From contig NZ_CP071501.1 of the NCBI RefSeq assembly GCF_017354985.1, forward strand, positions 887,501 through 951,500: DNA of 64,000 nt, read 5' to 3'. Below the pieces are notes generated by a model. That model searched no databases, was not told where the DNA came from, and saw only the letters and a list, made by a program, of their open reading frames with translations. This DNA comes from Shewanella cyperi (GTDB taxonomy: Bacteria; Pseudomonadota; Gammaproteobacteria; Enterobacterales; Shewanellaceae). The position numbers were made by a program, and so were the translations under genes. Below are positions 7,191 to 12,101 of the stretch, piece after piece. Within the stretch, counting starts at the first letter, position 1, and each line of letters begins with the position of its first letter.

Positions 7191-7757
7191 ATGAGTGGGG
7201 AAAACACGCCCGTGGGCCTGGGCGATGGCAATTATCAATTTGGCGTCTGCATAGGCAACAGGCCGCCCTTTATGGGCTTGCAGCAGCTGGATAGTTGCCG
7301 TCCCCTGGTGGCGGGTGAGATCAAGGCCATAGGGGATGCCTGTGGCAATGGCTGGCGCAAGGTGTTCAATGTCTACGCCAAACTGCTGTGGGCCATGAAG
7401 CAAGCGGGATTGGCGCAAGAGCCGCCGCTGGCCCGGCTAGAGGAATTTTCGGAATGGCAGCAGTACCGGGATGACCTCTTGCTGCAACCGGGCTCGGGGA
7501 CGGCGCTGCTGTTTGAGCCCCCCGCAACCCTTGATGACGGCCGAGTGCACCTCATCATGGGCCGCACCTGGGCCAAGCAGTTACTGGACGAGGGGCGGCT
7601 GGTGGCCGAGCTGGACTGGCTTAATCCTGAGTTTGCCATCGACCGCCGCAGGCGGCTGATTGTCTGCCCCTACTTCGACTACCGCCAGCTGTCTGATATC
7701 AAGATAGAATTTCTGGTGTCCCTGCTGGCTGAGGGATTTGATTGGTCCGGTGCCTGA
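7191..7757 (+). CDS. conserved hypothetical protein (possibly DUF6942)
   Basis: A 188-residue soluble protein with no signal peptide or membrane segment. Recognisable stretches are GVCIGNRPPF near the start, NGWRKVFNVYAKLLWAM in the middle and LIMGRTWAKQLL later. It resembles what I remember of a Shewanella/Vibrio family labelled DUF6942, but I cannot verify this. I chose the ATG at 7191 with GAGGT upstream; an in-frame ATG at 7137 is an alternative. It is divergent from zapE and its 3' end overlaps the convergent four-helix membrane gene by 59 bp, an unusually long tail-to-tail overlap. No function is inferred. Confidence 0.65.
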   Translation: MSGENTPVGLGDGNYQFGVCIGNRPPFMGLQQLDSCRPLVAGEIKAIGDACGNGWRKVFNVYAKLLWAMKQAGLAQEPPLARLEEFSEWQQYRDDLLLQPGSGTALLFEPPATLDDGRVHLIMGRTWAKQLLDEGRLVAELDWLNPEFAIDRRRRLIVCPYFDYRQLSDIKIEFLVSLLAEGFDWSGA

Positions 7758-8229
7758 CAGACTGCCTGTGTTTGGCCGCCTCTATGGTTGCCCGCCTGAC
7801 CTTGATGCCATGGTGCCAGTGCCAGAGGAACAGCAGCAGCAGCAGGTTCCCCAGGCCTGAGTGCAGCAGGCTGGCGTAAAGTTGCCAATCTTCGTCGCCA
7901 AGGTAATAGAGCCCAAGCCCCGTCAGTGCCAGCAACAGCAGTGACAACGTCAGGATCAGACCGCTGCGGTGGTTCTCGCGCCGACGCCAACCGGCGCGGA
8001 TATGCACCTGCCACAGGGCGCCGAGCAGCAGCAACAGGCCGTAGGCCGCCAGCATATGGCTCACCACTATGGGTTGGCGCCAGCCATGAGCGAGTTGGAT
8101 GCCCACATCCAGCTCCAGTTTGAATTCCGCAACCCAGGGCAGCATGGCCAGGCCCGACAAGCCCACCAGCGCCATGGCGCCAATCAGTAAATAGAAAAAT
8201 CCGTTGGGATAACCATTGAGCCTTTTCAT
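7699..8229 (-). CDS. four-helix integral membrane protein, last gene of the Fur-linked flavin operon
   Basis: The 176-residue product has about four hydrophobic segments (residues about 10-32, 50-75, 85-105 and 115-140) and histidines in or near them: VVSHMLAAYG, LHSGLGN and LWHWHHG. This is compatible with a small b-type cytochrome, although haem ligation is only a guess. I chose the ATG at 8229 with GAGGA upstream; an earlier in-frame ATG at 8265 lies inside apbE. The ribosome site overlaps the apbE stop codon, so translation is probably coupled. A quinol-linked membrane partner passing electrons to the FMN protein of the same operon would fit the context. Confidence 0.75.
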   Translation of the reverse strand: MKRLNGYPNGFFYLLIGAMALVGLSGLAMLPWVAEFKLELDVGIQLAHGWRQPIVVSHMLAAYGLLLLLGALWQVHIRAGWRRRENHRSGLILTLSLLLLALTGLGLYYLGDEDWQLYASLLHSGLGNLLLLLFLWHWHHGIKVRRATIEAAKHRQSVRHRTNQIPQPAGTPEILS

Positions 8230-8236
8230 TCTGTCC

Positions 8237-9031
8237 TCAATCAAAATCGACCAGGGTGCCACCAAGCTCCGCCAGCAGCTCGGGGCCTCTGTGCCAGGCA
8301 GCGACCTTGGTCAGGGCATCGGCACGCCAGGCAAAGCGGGCGGCGACACTCAGCATGCGCTCGCCATTGGTGGTCGCATCGCAGAGCAGCAGTGATGGAA
8401 AGCTGGGATCGGCAGCGCCACCGAGGCGTGAGCTGGCGATGGCCATGTTTTCCAATGCCATGGGGGCGCTCAAACCATCGCAACGCCTTTGCCGCAGTGC
8501 CAGGCGCATATCACCGAAAACCCGGATATCACCGCCGGCATTGACGCTGCCGCTTTGAATACCTTGCGCCTTGAGTGCCCTGACCGCCAGATCCACCGCG
8601 TAGCCCTTGGCTATGCCATCCAGGGTCAAGAGCACGGGGCGGGCCAGCCTGGCGCCTTGAGGGCCAAGTTCAATATCCCGCCAACTGCCGAGGGTCAAAA
8701 AATCCCGGGCCTTGTGCCTTGGCAGGGCGCCACGCTCCACCAAAGACCCACCGACCGTGACGTTGAATTTATCCTCTGTCCGCCGCCCAAGGGCCCTGGC
8801 CAGGCGCAGAATCCGCAGGCCGTGGCGCCCCATGGGCTGCCATTGCCCGGGATGGGCGTTGAGCCTGGACAGTTCGCTGTCCGGGCGATGGAAGCTGAGG
8901 CTACTGTCTATCTGCGCCATCACCGCAAAAGCCGCCCCGAAGGCGGCCTGTGCCTTGGCACTGTCATCACAGCGGAGGGTTAACTCCACCAGGGTGCCCA
9001 GCAAGGGCCGGGCGCGGCGTTGCAGTGTCAT
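8237..9031 (-). CDS. apbE: ApbE-family FAD:protein FMN transferase
   Basis: A 264-residue ApbE-like protein, shorter than the usual 330-350 because it lacks an obvious signal peptide. Family features are LLGTLVEL at the N-terminus, NVTVGGSL, LDGIAKGYAVDLAV, GSVNAGGDIRVFG (FAD/Mg site) and ADALTKVA near the C-terminus. ApbE enzymes split FAD and attach FMN to a threonine in a [S/T]GAT-type motif on a target protein. A plausible target, with SGAT, is encoded immediately upstream and overlaps by 4 bp (ATGA). Lack of a signal peptide leaves open whether it acts in the cytoplasm or is exported differently. The operon is probably Fur-controlled. Confidence 0.88.
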   Translation of the reverse strand: MTLQRRARPLLGTLVELTLRCDDSAKAQAAFGAAFAVMAQIDSSLSFHRPDSELSRLNAHPGQWQPMGRHGLRILRLARALGRRTEDKFNVTVGGSLVERGALPRHKARDFLTLGSWRDIELGPQGARLARPVLLTLDGIAKGYAVDLAVRALKAQGIQSGSVNAGGDIRVFGDMRLALRQRRCDGLSAPMALENMAIASSRLGGAADPSFPSLLLCDATTNGERMLSVAARFAWRADALTKVAAWHRGPELLAELGGTLVDFD

Positions 9032-9579
9032 GCGTCTTTGGCAAGGTAAAGCTGTTGTATGGTCAGCAGGCGTTTGACCCCATCGAGCAGGTTACGACAG
9101 CTCAGGGTGGCACCGCTGATGTTGCTGACGTCTTCATCCAGCTTGAAGGGTTGCCCCAGGTGCTTGCCCTTGAACTGATCGCGCCAGGCCTGTTCCCGCA
9201 CCTGACCACCGTGGGTCTCACGATAGCTGAGCACTTCCATTCCCAGCACCTCGCCCTCGGGGCTGATGCCGACCGCATAGGTGATGTATTCATGCTTGCC
9301 TATGACGTCATCGACGATAAACCAGCCACGGAATTCGCCGTTTTCTTCCACCCGCCAAATGGGTTGTTGATCCTGACGCTGGCGGGTGCCGGCCTTGTGC
9401 TTGATCTCGTCCTTGGCATCGCCGTTAAACAGGGTGGGGCGCTCGATAAATTGCGCCTGGGACGAGAACAGCAGCTGCTGGGCCTGGGGAATGCTGAGGT
9501 AATCGGCGGCAACCGCGGGGGCGGCCACCAGGGCCATGGGGATGAACCACAGGCTGTTGTTGAACAGATTGTCTGACAT
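9028..9579 (-). CDS. periplasmic FMN-binding-domain protein
   Basis: The start at 9579 is supported by GAGGAG in the right place; a longer frame to 9606 is less likely. The 183-residue product begins with a signal-like hydrophobic stretch (FIPMALVAAPAVAA) and has the FMN-binding fold: YAVGISPEGEVLGMEVLSYRE in the middle and DVSNISGATLSCRNLLDGV near residue 155, where the threonine of SGAT is the expected site of covalent FMN attachment. ApbE, the enzyme for that modification, is the next gene and overlaps by 4 bp. It is probably an envelope electron carrier, as in NqrC/RnfG relatives. A hairpin terminator lies just upstream of its ribosome site. Confidence 0.85.
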   Translation of the reverse strand: MSDNLFNNSLWFIPMALVAAPAVAADYLSIPQAQQLLFSSQAQFIERPTLFNGDAKDEIKHKAGTRQRQDQQPIWRVEENGEFRGWFIVDDVIGKHEYITYAVGISPEGEVLGMEVLSYRETHGGQVREQAWRDQFKGKHLGQPFKLDEDVSNISGATLSCRNLLDGVKRLLTIQQLYLAKDA

Positions 9580-9591
9580 GGAGAGCTCCTC

Positions 9592-9621
9592 AAAAATGGC
9601 GGGCATGGGACCATGCCCGCC
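9592..9621 (-). terminator. intra-operon hairpin with T-tract
   Basis: On the minus strand an 11-bp perfect stem (GGCGGGCATGG / CCATGCCCGCC) with a 2-nt centre is followed by ATTTTTG. It lies between the stop of the beta-barrel gene and the start of the FMN-binding gene, so it should end most transcripts after the first gene and let a fraction read through. Confidence 0.7.
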
Positions 9622-9627
9622 GCGGCA

Positions 9628-10527
9628 TCAGAAGTTGAAGGCCACTTTCAGGCGGATTTCCTGCTCGGTTTTCTCGATCAGGTGCAGATCCGTATCCTGA
9701 CCATCGAACTGCTCACCACCACCGGCCAGTTGCGGCAACCAGGTCAGGGTTGCCCACCAGTTGGCGCTGCCGTAGTGCAGGGAAGGGCCGGCAAACCAGG
9801 ACCAGCGCTCCTGACCCACTTCGGTTTCAAATTCGGTTTCGTACAGCACTTCGGCGCTGACAAACCAGTTGGGGGCGAAGCGGTAGCTCAGACCGGTGCC
9901 GAACTTGAGTTCGATTTCCATTTCAGGATCGGTTGGCCAATCAAAGTCTTCCGGCAGGTTATTGATGGCGGCGCGATCGGCATAGGTGGCTTCAACAGCC
10001 ATGTTGCCAACCCAAACCAGCTCACCTTCGAGCATGTACTTCTGGGTTTGCAGTCCCATTTCCAGTGACAGTGTGTCCTTGTCATAGCCCGAGTGCTTGT
10101 CGACCCAGTCATAGTCCAGCGACAGGGAGGCCTGCAGGCCCAGATCATCCTTGGCGGGGCTGAGGAACATGTAGGCCATGCCGAGCTCTGCACCCGAGGT
10201 CTTGAAACCTATGTTCTTGTCACCGGGCAGGTAACCATCAACGCTCAAACCCTTGGCGTCCAGGGACATGAATTTGGCCGAGGCGGACACGGAGAACTTG
10301 TCGCTGTAGCCGTATTCCAGCTCGGTTTCATAGTCTATGCCCTGGTAGCTGCCGATGCTTTTGCCATCGCGTACCGTGACTTTTTGGTACAGCTCTACCG
10401 CATCCTTGGGCAGGGATTCAGCCCCTTTTACATAGCCGAACAGGTCTTCACCGGCTTGGGCATTTTGCATCAGGGCGCCTGTAATGATCATTGCCAACGC
10501 ACTGAGTTTTAACGAAGTTGTTTTCAT
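9628..10527 (-). CDS. outer-membrane beta-barrel protein (possibly DUF6662), first gene of the Fur-linked operon
   Basis: A 299-residue protein with a clear signal peptide (cleavage near NAQA/GED). The mature chain is rich in alternating polar and aromatic strands, including repeated YGYSDKFSVSAS and LSYRFAPNWFVSAEV-type segments, and ends in VAFNF with a terminal phenylalanine, the signature of BAM-inserted barrels. It resembles the family I recall as DUF6662. It is not TonB-dependent: no plug domain or TonB box is seen and it is too short. It is followed by FMN-binding, ApbE and membrane genes, and a Fur box overlaps its promoter, so a role in iron or electron handling at the cell surface is a reasonable inference. 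Confidence 0.78.
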   Translation of the reverse strand: MKTTSLKLSALAMIITGALMQNAQAGEDLFGYVKGAESLPKDAVELYQKVTVRDGKSIGSYQGIDYETELEYGYSDKFSVSASAKFMSLDAKGLSVDGYLPGDKNIGFKTSGAELGMAYMFLSPAKDDLGLQASLSLDYDWVDKHSGYDKDTLSLEMGLQTQKYMLEGELVWVGNMAVEATYADRAAINNLPEDFDWPTDPEMEIELKFGTGLSYRFAPNWFVSAEVLYETEFETEVGQERWSWFAGPSLHYGSANWWATLTWLPQLAGGGEQFDGQDTDLHLIEKTEQEIRLKVAFNF

Positions 10528-10569: not shown

Positions 10570-10598
10570 ATTGTATAGAGAACTTAATCTAAATGCAA
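10570..10598 (-). promoter_or_regulatory. sigma-70 promoter of the OMP-FMN-ApbE operon
   Basis: Read on the minus strand, TTGCAT (10598-10593) and TACAAT (10575-10570) are separated by 17 bp. The -10 matches consensus at five of six positions and the -35 at three. The start would fall about 35 bp upstream of the barrel gene's ATG. The Fur box covers the -35. Confidence 0.55.
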
Positions 10599-10608
10599 AT
10601 CACTATCA
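10594..10608. promoter_or_regulatory. Fur box
   Basis: TGCAAATCACTATCA matches the 7-1-7 Fur consensus TGATAATNATTATCA at 12 of 14 fixed positions. It overlaps the -35 of the minus-strand operon and lies about 120 bp upstream of fumC, so iron-loaded Fur would be expected to repress the operon and perhaps fumC. Fur control of the iron-free fumarase is known in other gammaproteobacteria. Confidence 0.65.
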
Positions 10609-10727
10609 TTAAGATCATTGTAAATCTCATCGGGCTGTGGCAGGGAAGGGGCGGGTGCCCCGAGCCTGAACTAACATGGGTAGAAGAAGCCTGGGTTGGC
10701 CGGGCTCAGGCATCAGGAATCTGTGTG

Positions 10728-12101
10728 ATGGAAACCCGGATTGAACGCGACAGCATGGGTCAGGTCGCCGTGCCGAAAGAGGCACTTTATGGTGCCCAGA
10801 CCCAGAGGGCGGTGGATAACTTTCCCATCAGCGGCACGCCCATGCCCAAGGCTTTCATTCAGTCGCTGTTGCAGATAAAGGCCGCTGCGGCGAGGGCCAA
10901 TGCCCACCTGGGAGTATTGGCTCCGGATTGCGCCCATGCCATTGCCGAAGCCGCCCTGTCCCTGGCCCGCAATGACAGGCTAATGCAGCACTTCCCGGTG
11001 GACGTATTCCAAACCGGCTCAGGCACCAGCAGTAATATGAACGCCAACGAGGTACTGGCCAGTTTGGCGGCCATAGGTCTGGGACGCCCCGTCAGCGCCA
11101 ACGATGAGGTCAACCAAAGCCAGAGCAGCAATGATGTGATCCCAAGCTGCATCCATGTGGCGGCCGCCAAGGCTTTGGCAACCGAGCTGTTGCCGGCGCT
11201 GGAGCAGCTTAAATCCAGCATTCGGACCAAGGCCACCGGTCTGTCCGGTTCAATCAAAACCGGCCGCACCCACTTGATGGATGCCATGCCTGTGCGCCTG
11301 AGCCAGAGCCTGGAGACCTGGGCCAGTCAGCTGGATGCCCAGGCGCTGCAACTCCAATCCCATTTGCAGGCGGTGCAAAATTTGCCCCAGGGTGGCACAG
11401 CCGTGGGTACCGGGGTTAATGCACCCCCAGGCTTTTCCCGGACCTTTTGCGATGAGCTGAATCTAATTACCGGCCTGGGCTTTCAACCGGCCGCCAATCT
11501 GTTTACCTATATCGCCAGTCAGGACGCGGCGGTGGCTTTGTCGGGTCAGCTCAAGTCCCTGGCGGTGACCCTGATGAAAATTGCCAACGATCTGCGCTGG
11601 ATGAACTCCGGCCCCCTGTCCGGTCTTGGGGAAATCCGTTTGCCGGCGCTGCAGCCCGGCTCTTCCATTATGCCGGGCAAGGTGAATCCTGTGATCCCCG
11701 AGGCGGTGGCCATGGTCGCCGCTCAGGTGATAGGCAATGATGCCTGTATCACGGTTGCCGGTCAGTCGGGGAATTTTGAACTCAATGTGATGCTGCCCGT
11801 TATAGCCCATAACCTGCTGTCCAGTCTGCAACTCTTGAGCAAGGCCATGGTGACGCTGGCCGACAAGGCCATTGCCGGTTTCGAGGTCTGTGATGACAGA
11901 TTGGCGCGGGATCTGGCCCGTAATCCGATCTTGGTGACAGCGCTCAATCCCGTCATCGGTTACGCCAAGTCGGCGGAGATTGCCAAACGGGCCTATGCCG
12001 AGGGCAGGCCGATACTGGAAGTGGCAGCGGAAATGACCGACATGGATAAGGAAGAGCTGGCGCGATTGCTGGATCCCGCCCGCCTCACGGGACAGGAGTA
12101 A
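10728..12101 (+). CDS. fumC: fumarate hydratase, class II (iron-independent)
   Basis: A 457-residue class II fumarase, which interconverts fumarate and malate without an Fe-S cluster. Signatures are ALYGAQTQRAVDNF at the N-terminus, FQTGSGTSSNMNANEV near residue 100, the conserved GRTHLMDA and the fumarate-lyase motif GSSIMPGKVNP near 320. I chose the ATG at 10728 with AGGA upstream; the longer frame would start before any ribosome site. It is divergent from a Fur-linked operon, and the Fur box between them fits the use of FumC when iron is short and Fe-S fumarases fail. A strong hairpin terminator follows. Confidence 0.96.
   Translation: METRIERDSMGQVAVPKEALYGAQTQRAVDNFPISGTPMPKAFIQSLLQIKAAAARANAHLGVLAPDCAHAIAEAALSLARNDRLMQHFPVDVFQTGSGTSSNMNANEVLASLAAIGLGRPVSANDEVNQSQSSNDVIPSCIHVAAAKALATELLPALEQLKSSIRTKATGLSGSIKTGRTHLMDAMPVRLSQSLETWASQLDAQALQLQSHLQAVQNLPQGGTAVGTGVNAPPGFSRTFCDELNLITGLGFQPAANLFTYIASQDAAVALSGQLKSLAVTLMKIANDLRWMNSGPLSGLGEIRLPALQPGSSIMPGKVNPVIPEAVAMVAAQVIGNDACITVAGQSGNFELNVMLPVIAHNLLSSLQLLSKAMVTLADKAIAGFEVCDDRLARDLARNPILVTALNPVIGYAKSAEIAKRAYAEGRPILEVAAEMTDMDKEELARLLDPARLTGQE

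Follow-up and report, generated by a model that had tools for sequence, protein, structure and literature searches.

We describe here four head-to-tail genes on the minus strand of the Shewanella cyperi genome (positions 7699-10527 of the window, that is, of the whole stretch of 64,000 nucleotides analysed), coding for a DUF6662 outer-membrane barrel, an FMN_bind protein (FMN, flavin mononucleotide) with an SGAT motif, a short ApbE and a four-helix membrane protein. These genes are a conserved module, and we consider it likely, if well short of certain, that they form a Fur-repressed, flavin-based ferric-reductase module in which a membrane b-type cytochrome passes electrons to a periplasmic flavoprotein. 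The four-gene set, present in many other bacteria, looks undescribed: a literature search, in which survey supplements were not covered, gave no paper naming DUF6662 and no description of such an operon. The features of the locus are as follows.

7699-8229, minus strand: four-helix membrane protein, 176 aa, with His58, His76, His123 and His137
8237-9031, minus strand: short ApbE (PF02424)
9028-9579, minus strand: FMN_bind protein, 183 aa (PF04205)
9106-9117, minus strand: SGAT codons, the Thr codon at 9106-9108 being the expected FMN attachment site
9628-10527, minus strand: DUF6662 outer-membrane protein, 299 aa, with terminal Phe (PF20367)
10570-10598, minus strand: promoter-like TTGCAT-17-TACAAT, hexamers picked by eye
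10592-10610, minus strand: Fur-like 9-1-9 palindrome AATGATAGTGATTTGCATT, over the promoter
10593-12101, divergent from the operon: FumC-like gene, with a promoter region common to both

Re-reading the DNA confirmed the layout given in the original prediction, namely the order of the four genes, the 4-bp overlap (ATGA) of the apbE start with the stop of the FMN-binding gene, the GAGGA ribosome site of the four-helix gene sitting over the apbE stop, the terminal Phe of the barrel and the SGAT motif. The place and the stop (9028) of the FMN-binding gene also held, whereas its start had to be corrected and is most likely 9579, an ATG after GAGGAG.

The DUF6662 profile was surveyed in 146 genomes of the family and 398 of the phylum, with the S. 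cyperi genome counted in both, and was present in 16 and 10 of them, respectively, giving 24 genomes besides our own; one DUF6662 match, in G520 (C1:359993), was left out of the locus survey. In all 24 (20 first, then 4) the barrel, the FMN-binding protein, ApbE and the four-helix protein follow one another in this order on one strand. Conservation across Shewanella, set beforehand as a check, was found in 15 out of 15 other DUF6662-positive genomes of the same genus, and the confinement of DUF6662 to 16 of the 146 family genomes limits the spread of the unit within the family. Shewanella sp. ANA-3 is one of the strains with the module (L058). A second set of loci was anchored on the FMN-binding protein, whose relatives in named genomes number at least 548, and comprised the 80 nearest, SGAT being part of the search pattern; because only the nearest were taken, distant variants are under-sampled. 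Here 78 loci hold the barrel, ApbE and the four-helix gene are found in 77 each, and the unit is complete in 75. The incomplete loci lack ApbE and the four-helix gene (L091), the barrel (L124) or ApbE (L125), consist of the FMN-binding gene alone (L126), or lie on a contig that stops inside ApbE (L093). The records include Shewanella, Alteromonadaceae, Oxalobacteraceae, Methylophilaceae, Thiomonas, Thiomicrorhabdus and Novosphingobium, together with metagenome-assembled genomes labelled Omnitrophota and Verrucomicrobia (labels as in the record titles, unverified).

The same association emerged when the four-helix profile served as the starting point, as it found 14 genes in 13 of the 398 phylum genomes, all 14 within two genes of an FMN_bind gene, 12 with ApbE and 10 with a DUF6662-type barrel (a further match in G052, E 9.8e-4, spans stops and was not counted). 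All ten DUF6662 genomes of this sample carry the four-helix gene, and in the family the two genes occupy the identical 16 of 146 genomes. The genes flanking the window's operon, in contrast, are rarely found with the unit across 108 loci (ZapE in 3, DUF6942 in 5, RpoD in 2 and FumC in 0). Thus the proposal that the four genes belong together is borne out by gene order in 24 of 24 and 75 of 80 loci, whereas the divergent fumarase, which had been drawn into the iron story as part of the system, was rejected after it appeared in 0 of 108 other loci (E 1e-10). The FumC-like protein itself scores under the NCBIfam cut-offs for fumarase and aspartase alike. Variants of the arrangement were also seen: in locus L132 (6920-8086) a tandem pair of FMN-binding genes separates the barrel from ApbE, and in locus L164 (4519-6699), where genome G187 has its second four-helix gene, this gene and an FMN_bind gene run towards each other and ApbE is absent, the FMN_bind gene being preceded by a barrel-like protein without Pfam match.

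Alignments of the module proteins contained 19, 19, 17 and 15 sequences, near-identical ones being left out, and among 19 aligned four-helix members His58, His76, His123 and His137 are the sole invariant histidines. Of the 77 four-helix proteins in the 80-locus set, all have His58 and His76, and 76 have His123 and His137, the remaining one being cut short by its local alignment; since another gene supplied the patterns by which these loci were collected, the search itself does not account for this conservation. An AlphaFold model (65 sequences, pLDDT 94, the predicted local confidence score) has four membrane helices, the first of them kinked, with His58 and His76 on the second and His123 and His137 on the fourth. 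Two conserved histidine pairs on two membrane helices are the pattern of a two-haem b-type cytochrome, and this is what we predict the protein to be from its sequence and model; the membrane histidines pointed out originally have thereby gained weight. Both protein ends appear cytoplasmic, judged by us from the basic residues, and therefore one haem would sit near each membrane face. In a fold comparison cytochrome b6 ranked first (Z 12.7, root-mean-square deviation (rmsd) 3.7, 134 residues aligned), and the other top rows held hydrogenase cytochrome b, superoxide oxidase, formate dehydrogenase N gamma and designed two-haem bundles, as well as unrelated helix bundles. A search of PDB sequences with the four-helix profile gave no credible match (best E 1.4). 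There is a weak family signal: cytochrome b561 (PF01292) is matched by 19 of the 65 members, with a best E of 4.6e-8, and DUF4405 (PF14358) weakly by nine, with a best E of 9.7e-5. The protein also exchanges partners: locus L161 pairs it with ApbE, FMN_bind and Porin_O_P, and L162 with FMN_bind and Porin_O_P, which, together with a PepSY_TM cluster of the own genome described below, would suit a protein that supplies the flavoprotein with electrons.

The FMN-binding protein of the window matches PF04205 with 43.8 bits (cut-off 22), and the Thr of its SGAT motif is invariant in 19 of 19 aligned sequences and, with SGAT in the search pattern, in 80 of 80 loci. An FMN_bind domain with [S/T]GAT is the mark of an ApbE substrate, and the protein is a probable one. 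It looks periplasmic, given its sequence; of 80 relatives tested for hydropathy, 78 begin with a hydrophobic, signal-like stretch. In locus L050 (6593-7144) the FMN-binding protein has a Tat-like RRQFIK N-terminus and adjoins an ApbE that keeps HIVDP.

The barrel belongs to DUF6662 (PF20367, 306.3 bits vs a cut-off of 27) and has a signal-peptide-like N-terminus. Its AlphaFold model (59 sequences, pLDDT 93.7) shows 12 strands by our count of 13 segments, two of which make one broken strand, and its nearest solved folds are FapF (Z 23.5, rmsd 3.2, 248 aligned) and the COG4313 channel (Z 22.8, rmsd 2.6, 239 aligned); a search of PDB sequences with the barrel profile gave no credible match (best E 1.2). 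That the barrel is a small-molecule channel is a plain guess from this model. It was also considered as a second flavinylated protein and rejected by motif only, its SGAE stretch being without an acceptor Ser or Thr. Since the outer-membrane look is limited to the barrel and the flavoprotein looks periplasmic, the original placing of the pathway at the cell surface gained no support.

Control by Fur is suggested by the promoter, where the palindrome AATGATAGTGATTTGCATT overlaps the -35-like TTGCAT, 17 bp from TACAAT. All 12 Shewanella promoters that were aligned, that of the window among them (four near-identical promoters left out), have some form of the box in the corresponding position, the weakest being those of L036 and L046, and the operon thus has the conserved promoter palindrome expected of a member of the Fur regulon. 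Promoters were also scored singly against shuffles with a strict Fur consensus, and the box score was reached by 5 of 200 shuffles for the window, 21 of 60 for L034 and 27 of 60 for L045. Across the loci, the best match to AATGATAATNATTATCATT averaged 11.96 out of 18 in 75 barrel upstreams (of the 78 loci with a barrel) as compared with 9.94 in 488 control upstreams, and scores of 14 or more were obtained for 23 of 75 and 12 of 488, respectively; the controls came from the same loci as greedy picks of open reading frames (ORFs), some of which are not real genes. When palindromic motifs were learned on half the loci without a Fur prior, 18 of 37 and 16 of 38 held-out loci passed the 95th percentile of the controls. 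Boxes such as AATGAGAATGATTCTTATT also lie upstream of four deep members (L165-L168). In our own genome a search with the strict consensus found one site elsewhere with 3 mismatches (L170), and a degenerate box pattern matched the window site only, a result that proves little because the pattern was shaped on that site. The recurrence of Fur-like palindromes across classes supports the Fur control claimed at the outset, and the operon is, by its sequence, probably switched on at iron scarcity.

Iron genes near the module were searched by tblastn across the 80 FMN-binding-anchored loci. FeoB and a bacterioferritin-like protein were each found in 7 loci, while a different ferritin and the pair of FTR1 and cupredoxin turned up in 1 locus each; at least one of these genes is present in 11 loci. 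All 7 FeoB matches carry FeoB Pfam domains, and the self-hits in this search (FTR1 and cupredoxin of L094, bacterioferritin of L124, FeoB of L126) were later confirmed by Pfam. Locus L162 (6571-13986) holds in one run P19, an OprB-like porin, ferritin, cupredoxin, FTR1, a 4Fe-4S membrane protein, Porin_O_P, FMN_bind and the four-helix gene, and is a hybrid of P19/FTR1 uptake and the four-gene module. The genome of S. cyperi carries FeoB. The predicted iron role is thus backed by nearby iron genes in a minority of loci, while its fumarase link was lost.

Taken together, the mechanism we propose runs as follows. Upon iron limitation Fur would leave the box and the four genes would be made. The four-helix protein would act as an inner-membrane two-haem b-type cytochrome, with His58/His123 near the periplasm and His76/His137 near the cytoplasm, that is reduced by quinol (a donor we infer), or by some other donor in the membrane or cytosol, and in turn reduces the FMN bound to the SGAT threonine of the periplasmic flavoprotein. 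This flavin would then reduce ferric iron or a ferric chelate entering via the DUF6662 barrel, and the ferrous iron would go to a transporter such as FeoB.

Several points weigh against this ferric-reductase reading. Gene order and its conservation, invariant residues, palindromes and iron-gene neighbours were observed directly, whereas we infer from sequence the haem, the flavinylation, the expression, the iron reduction, the direction of the electrons, the substrate, the cargo of the barrel and the binding of Fur. Neither Pfam nor NCBIfam gave a family for the window's own four-helix protein up to E 0.1, with PF01292 and PF14358 likewise unmatched, Foldseek gave no match to its model at E of 0.001 or below (best 0.068), and Z values under about 13, the range of its match to cytochrome b6, are common for helix bundles by arrangement alone. 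Scored singly, the box is no better than shuffles in several Shewanella promoters, and the statistics, those on Fur included, ignore the relatedness of the loci. The window ApbE has no histidine between the Ser and the Asp, so that its catalytic His is missing. Finally, none of the searched iron genes lies near 69 of the 80 loci, which is silent on function, and the count of 11 in 80 stands without a formal background rate.

These 69 loci would also suit a relay that serves another acceptor (a quinone, peroxide, copper or an organic compound) in respiration or detoxification, replacing iron-rich enzymes at iron starvation rather than taking up iron. Not all Fur genes are for uptake, as the S. 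oneidensis Fur table, in the available part of its source, includes dmsE and mtrD (PMC12442407), and the barrel resembles channels for organic molecules (COG4313). We nevertheless regard such a relay as unlikely in view of the FeoB, FTR1, P19 and ferritin neighbours and of the link between similar flavinylation clusters and iron transporters reported in the accessible text of PMC8238504. Electrons might also flow inward, from a periplasmic donor such as ferrous iron or a sulfur compound via the flavoprotein and the cytochrome to quinone. Iron- or sulfur-oxidising lineages, judged by name (Thiomonas, Thiobacillus, Sulfuriferula, Gallionellales and Halothiobacillus), make up many of the 80 records, but Shewanella, Novosphingobium and Microbulbifer are among them too, and the Fur-like boxes imply use at iron scarcity, making inward flow highly improbable.

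Another alternative concerns the enzyme that would flavinylate the FMN-binding protein. The window ApbE matches PF02424 with 105.7 bits (cut-off 25.6) and the profile aligns with solved ApbE structures, so that its identity and its adjacency to the likely substrate stand as first proposed, while its activity is less safe. In Vibrio cholerae ApbE, according to PMC12052999, the catalytic set is Ser241-His257-Asp285 with the His as general base, and the exchange H257G decreased activity but did not abolish it. The module ApbEs keep the Ser in 74 of 77 and the Asp in 75 of 77 but have His at the aligned column in only 4, and the motif H[ILV]xDP occurs in 0 of 77; the window ApbE, accordingly, lacks the full Ser-His-Asp set. 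The deep relatives L050, L166, L167 and L168 keep HIVDP or HI[IV]NP, which suggests that the His was lost within the main branch of the module. At the position of the Tyr and the Phe found in the two canonical ApbEs of our own genome, His stands in 62 and Gln in 12 of the 77 module enzymes. The ApbE domain starts a median of 1 codon past the stop of the FMN-binding gene and is preceded by at least 15 codons in only 3 of 77 cases (including L132, where the second FMN-binding gene lies between), and therefore, as a rule, there is no room for a signal peptide; it is on this lack of room that the absence of a signal peptide rests, as the hydropathy rule separates ApbE poorly (18 of 77 pass). Either flavinylation would precede export, or another ApbE would act on the FMN-binding protein.

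The operon ApbE might accordingly not be the transferase of its neighbour, a signal-peptide-bearing ApbE elsewhere in the genome flavinylating the SGAT protein in the periplasm and the operon enzyme handling or hydrolysing flavin or being a relic. Besides the lost histidine and the missing room for a signal peptide, this is suggested by a lipoprotein-like ApbE of our own genome with an HLIDP stretch, near an NqrF-like ORF (named by eye), and by L162, L164 and L125, which hold FMN_bind and four-helix genes without an adjacent ApbE. On the other hand, apbE is kept beside the likely substrate in 77 of 80 loci, the retention of Ser and Asp is unexpected of a relic, cytosolic ApbE enzymes are known, and the H257G enzyme of V. 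cholerae is still partly active (PMC12052999, in the text available). We take this division of labour as a serious possibility, though one with the odds against it, and it and the ferric-reductase reading can both hold together. More doubtful is the idea, put forward tentatively, that the operon ApbE is a distinct cytosolic transferase with a moved catalytic base, as hinted by the His or Gln in place of the canonical Tyr or Phe, and flavinylates its partner before export, the module then being a separate class of ferric reductase with its own cytochrome and channel. The question raised is how an ApbE without catalytic histidine, apparently cytosolic, serves a secreted substrate.

Flavinylated ferric-reductase systems are already known as a kind, and it is the membrane and outer-membrane parts of the module that are new. 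Five classes of flavinylation-linked membrane carrier have been described, with PepSY systems linked to Fur and iron (eLife 2021, PMC8238504, in the sections available), and DUF4405 and FezC cytochromes were added as apbE-linked carriers (mSystems 2024, PMC11334425, likewise as far as its text was available). The module resembles the PepSY-like systems in uniting genes for ApbE, for a periplasmic protein to be flavinylated and for an electron carrier in the membrane, a Fur and iron link being reported there (PMC8238504, same sections), but differs in that its membrane part is not PepSY_TM, its substrate is FMN_bind rather than DUF2271, and a DUF6662 barrel is included. Indeed, the window's four-helix protein has no Pfam match and hence neither PF03929 nor PF16357, PepSY is not among the 25 listed of 32 families matched by 65 four-helix members, and DUF2271, a frequent but not universal substrate, has no match in our own genome. 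Mutual exclusion with a PepSY/DUF2271 system was considered and rejected, as DUF2271 is found in 12 of 16 DUF6662 genomes vs 34 of 130 others and the two tend to co-occur. With DUF4405 and FezC the module shares an apbE-linked membrane protein with four conserved histidines, haem b having been shown for DUF4405; however, six membrane helices are described for DUF4405 (PMC11334425, in the available part) and the module's model has four, and the window protein gives no match to PF14358. Locus L162, with P19, FTR1, cupredoxin and ferritin, resembles the P19/FTR1 uptake clusters with FMN_bind described in the accessible text of PMC8238504, whereas neither P19 nor FTR1 lies beside the window operon. 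The module also stands apart from Nqr/Rnf pumps, since the window FMN_bind protein scores 40.5 for RnfG (cut-off 102) and under the cut-off for NqrC, and the scanned neighbours in the window are ZapE, DUF6942, an amidohydrolase, LysR and the FumC-like protein, with no Nqr/Rnf pump subunits beside the FMN_bind gene. In the section of PMC12442407 covered, the Fur table of S. oneidensis names SO_1188 PepSY and no DUF6662 gene, for a species whose strain MR-1 may or may not carry the module.

If the ferric-reductase reading is true, a widespread gene set, with at least 548 relatives of the flavoprotein, would become a defined iron-regulated electron path across the envelope, DUF6662 would gain a role, and a four-helix cytochrome would join the flavinylation-linked membrane carriers.

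A related cluster was seen in our own genome (L169, 2623-5198; C1:590500-597500), where a porin, FMN_bind and PepSY_TM stand in one run with the Fur-like AATGCGAATCGTTTGCATT upstream. Porin domains and PepSY_TM there replace DUF6662 and the four-helix protein, and no ApbE is found among the ORFs of this 7-kb stretch; like the module, the cluster unites an outer-membrane protein, FMN_bind and a membrane carrier in one run.

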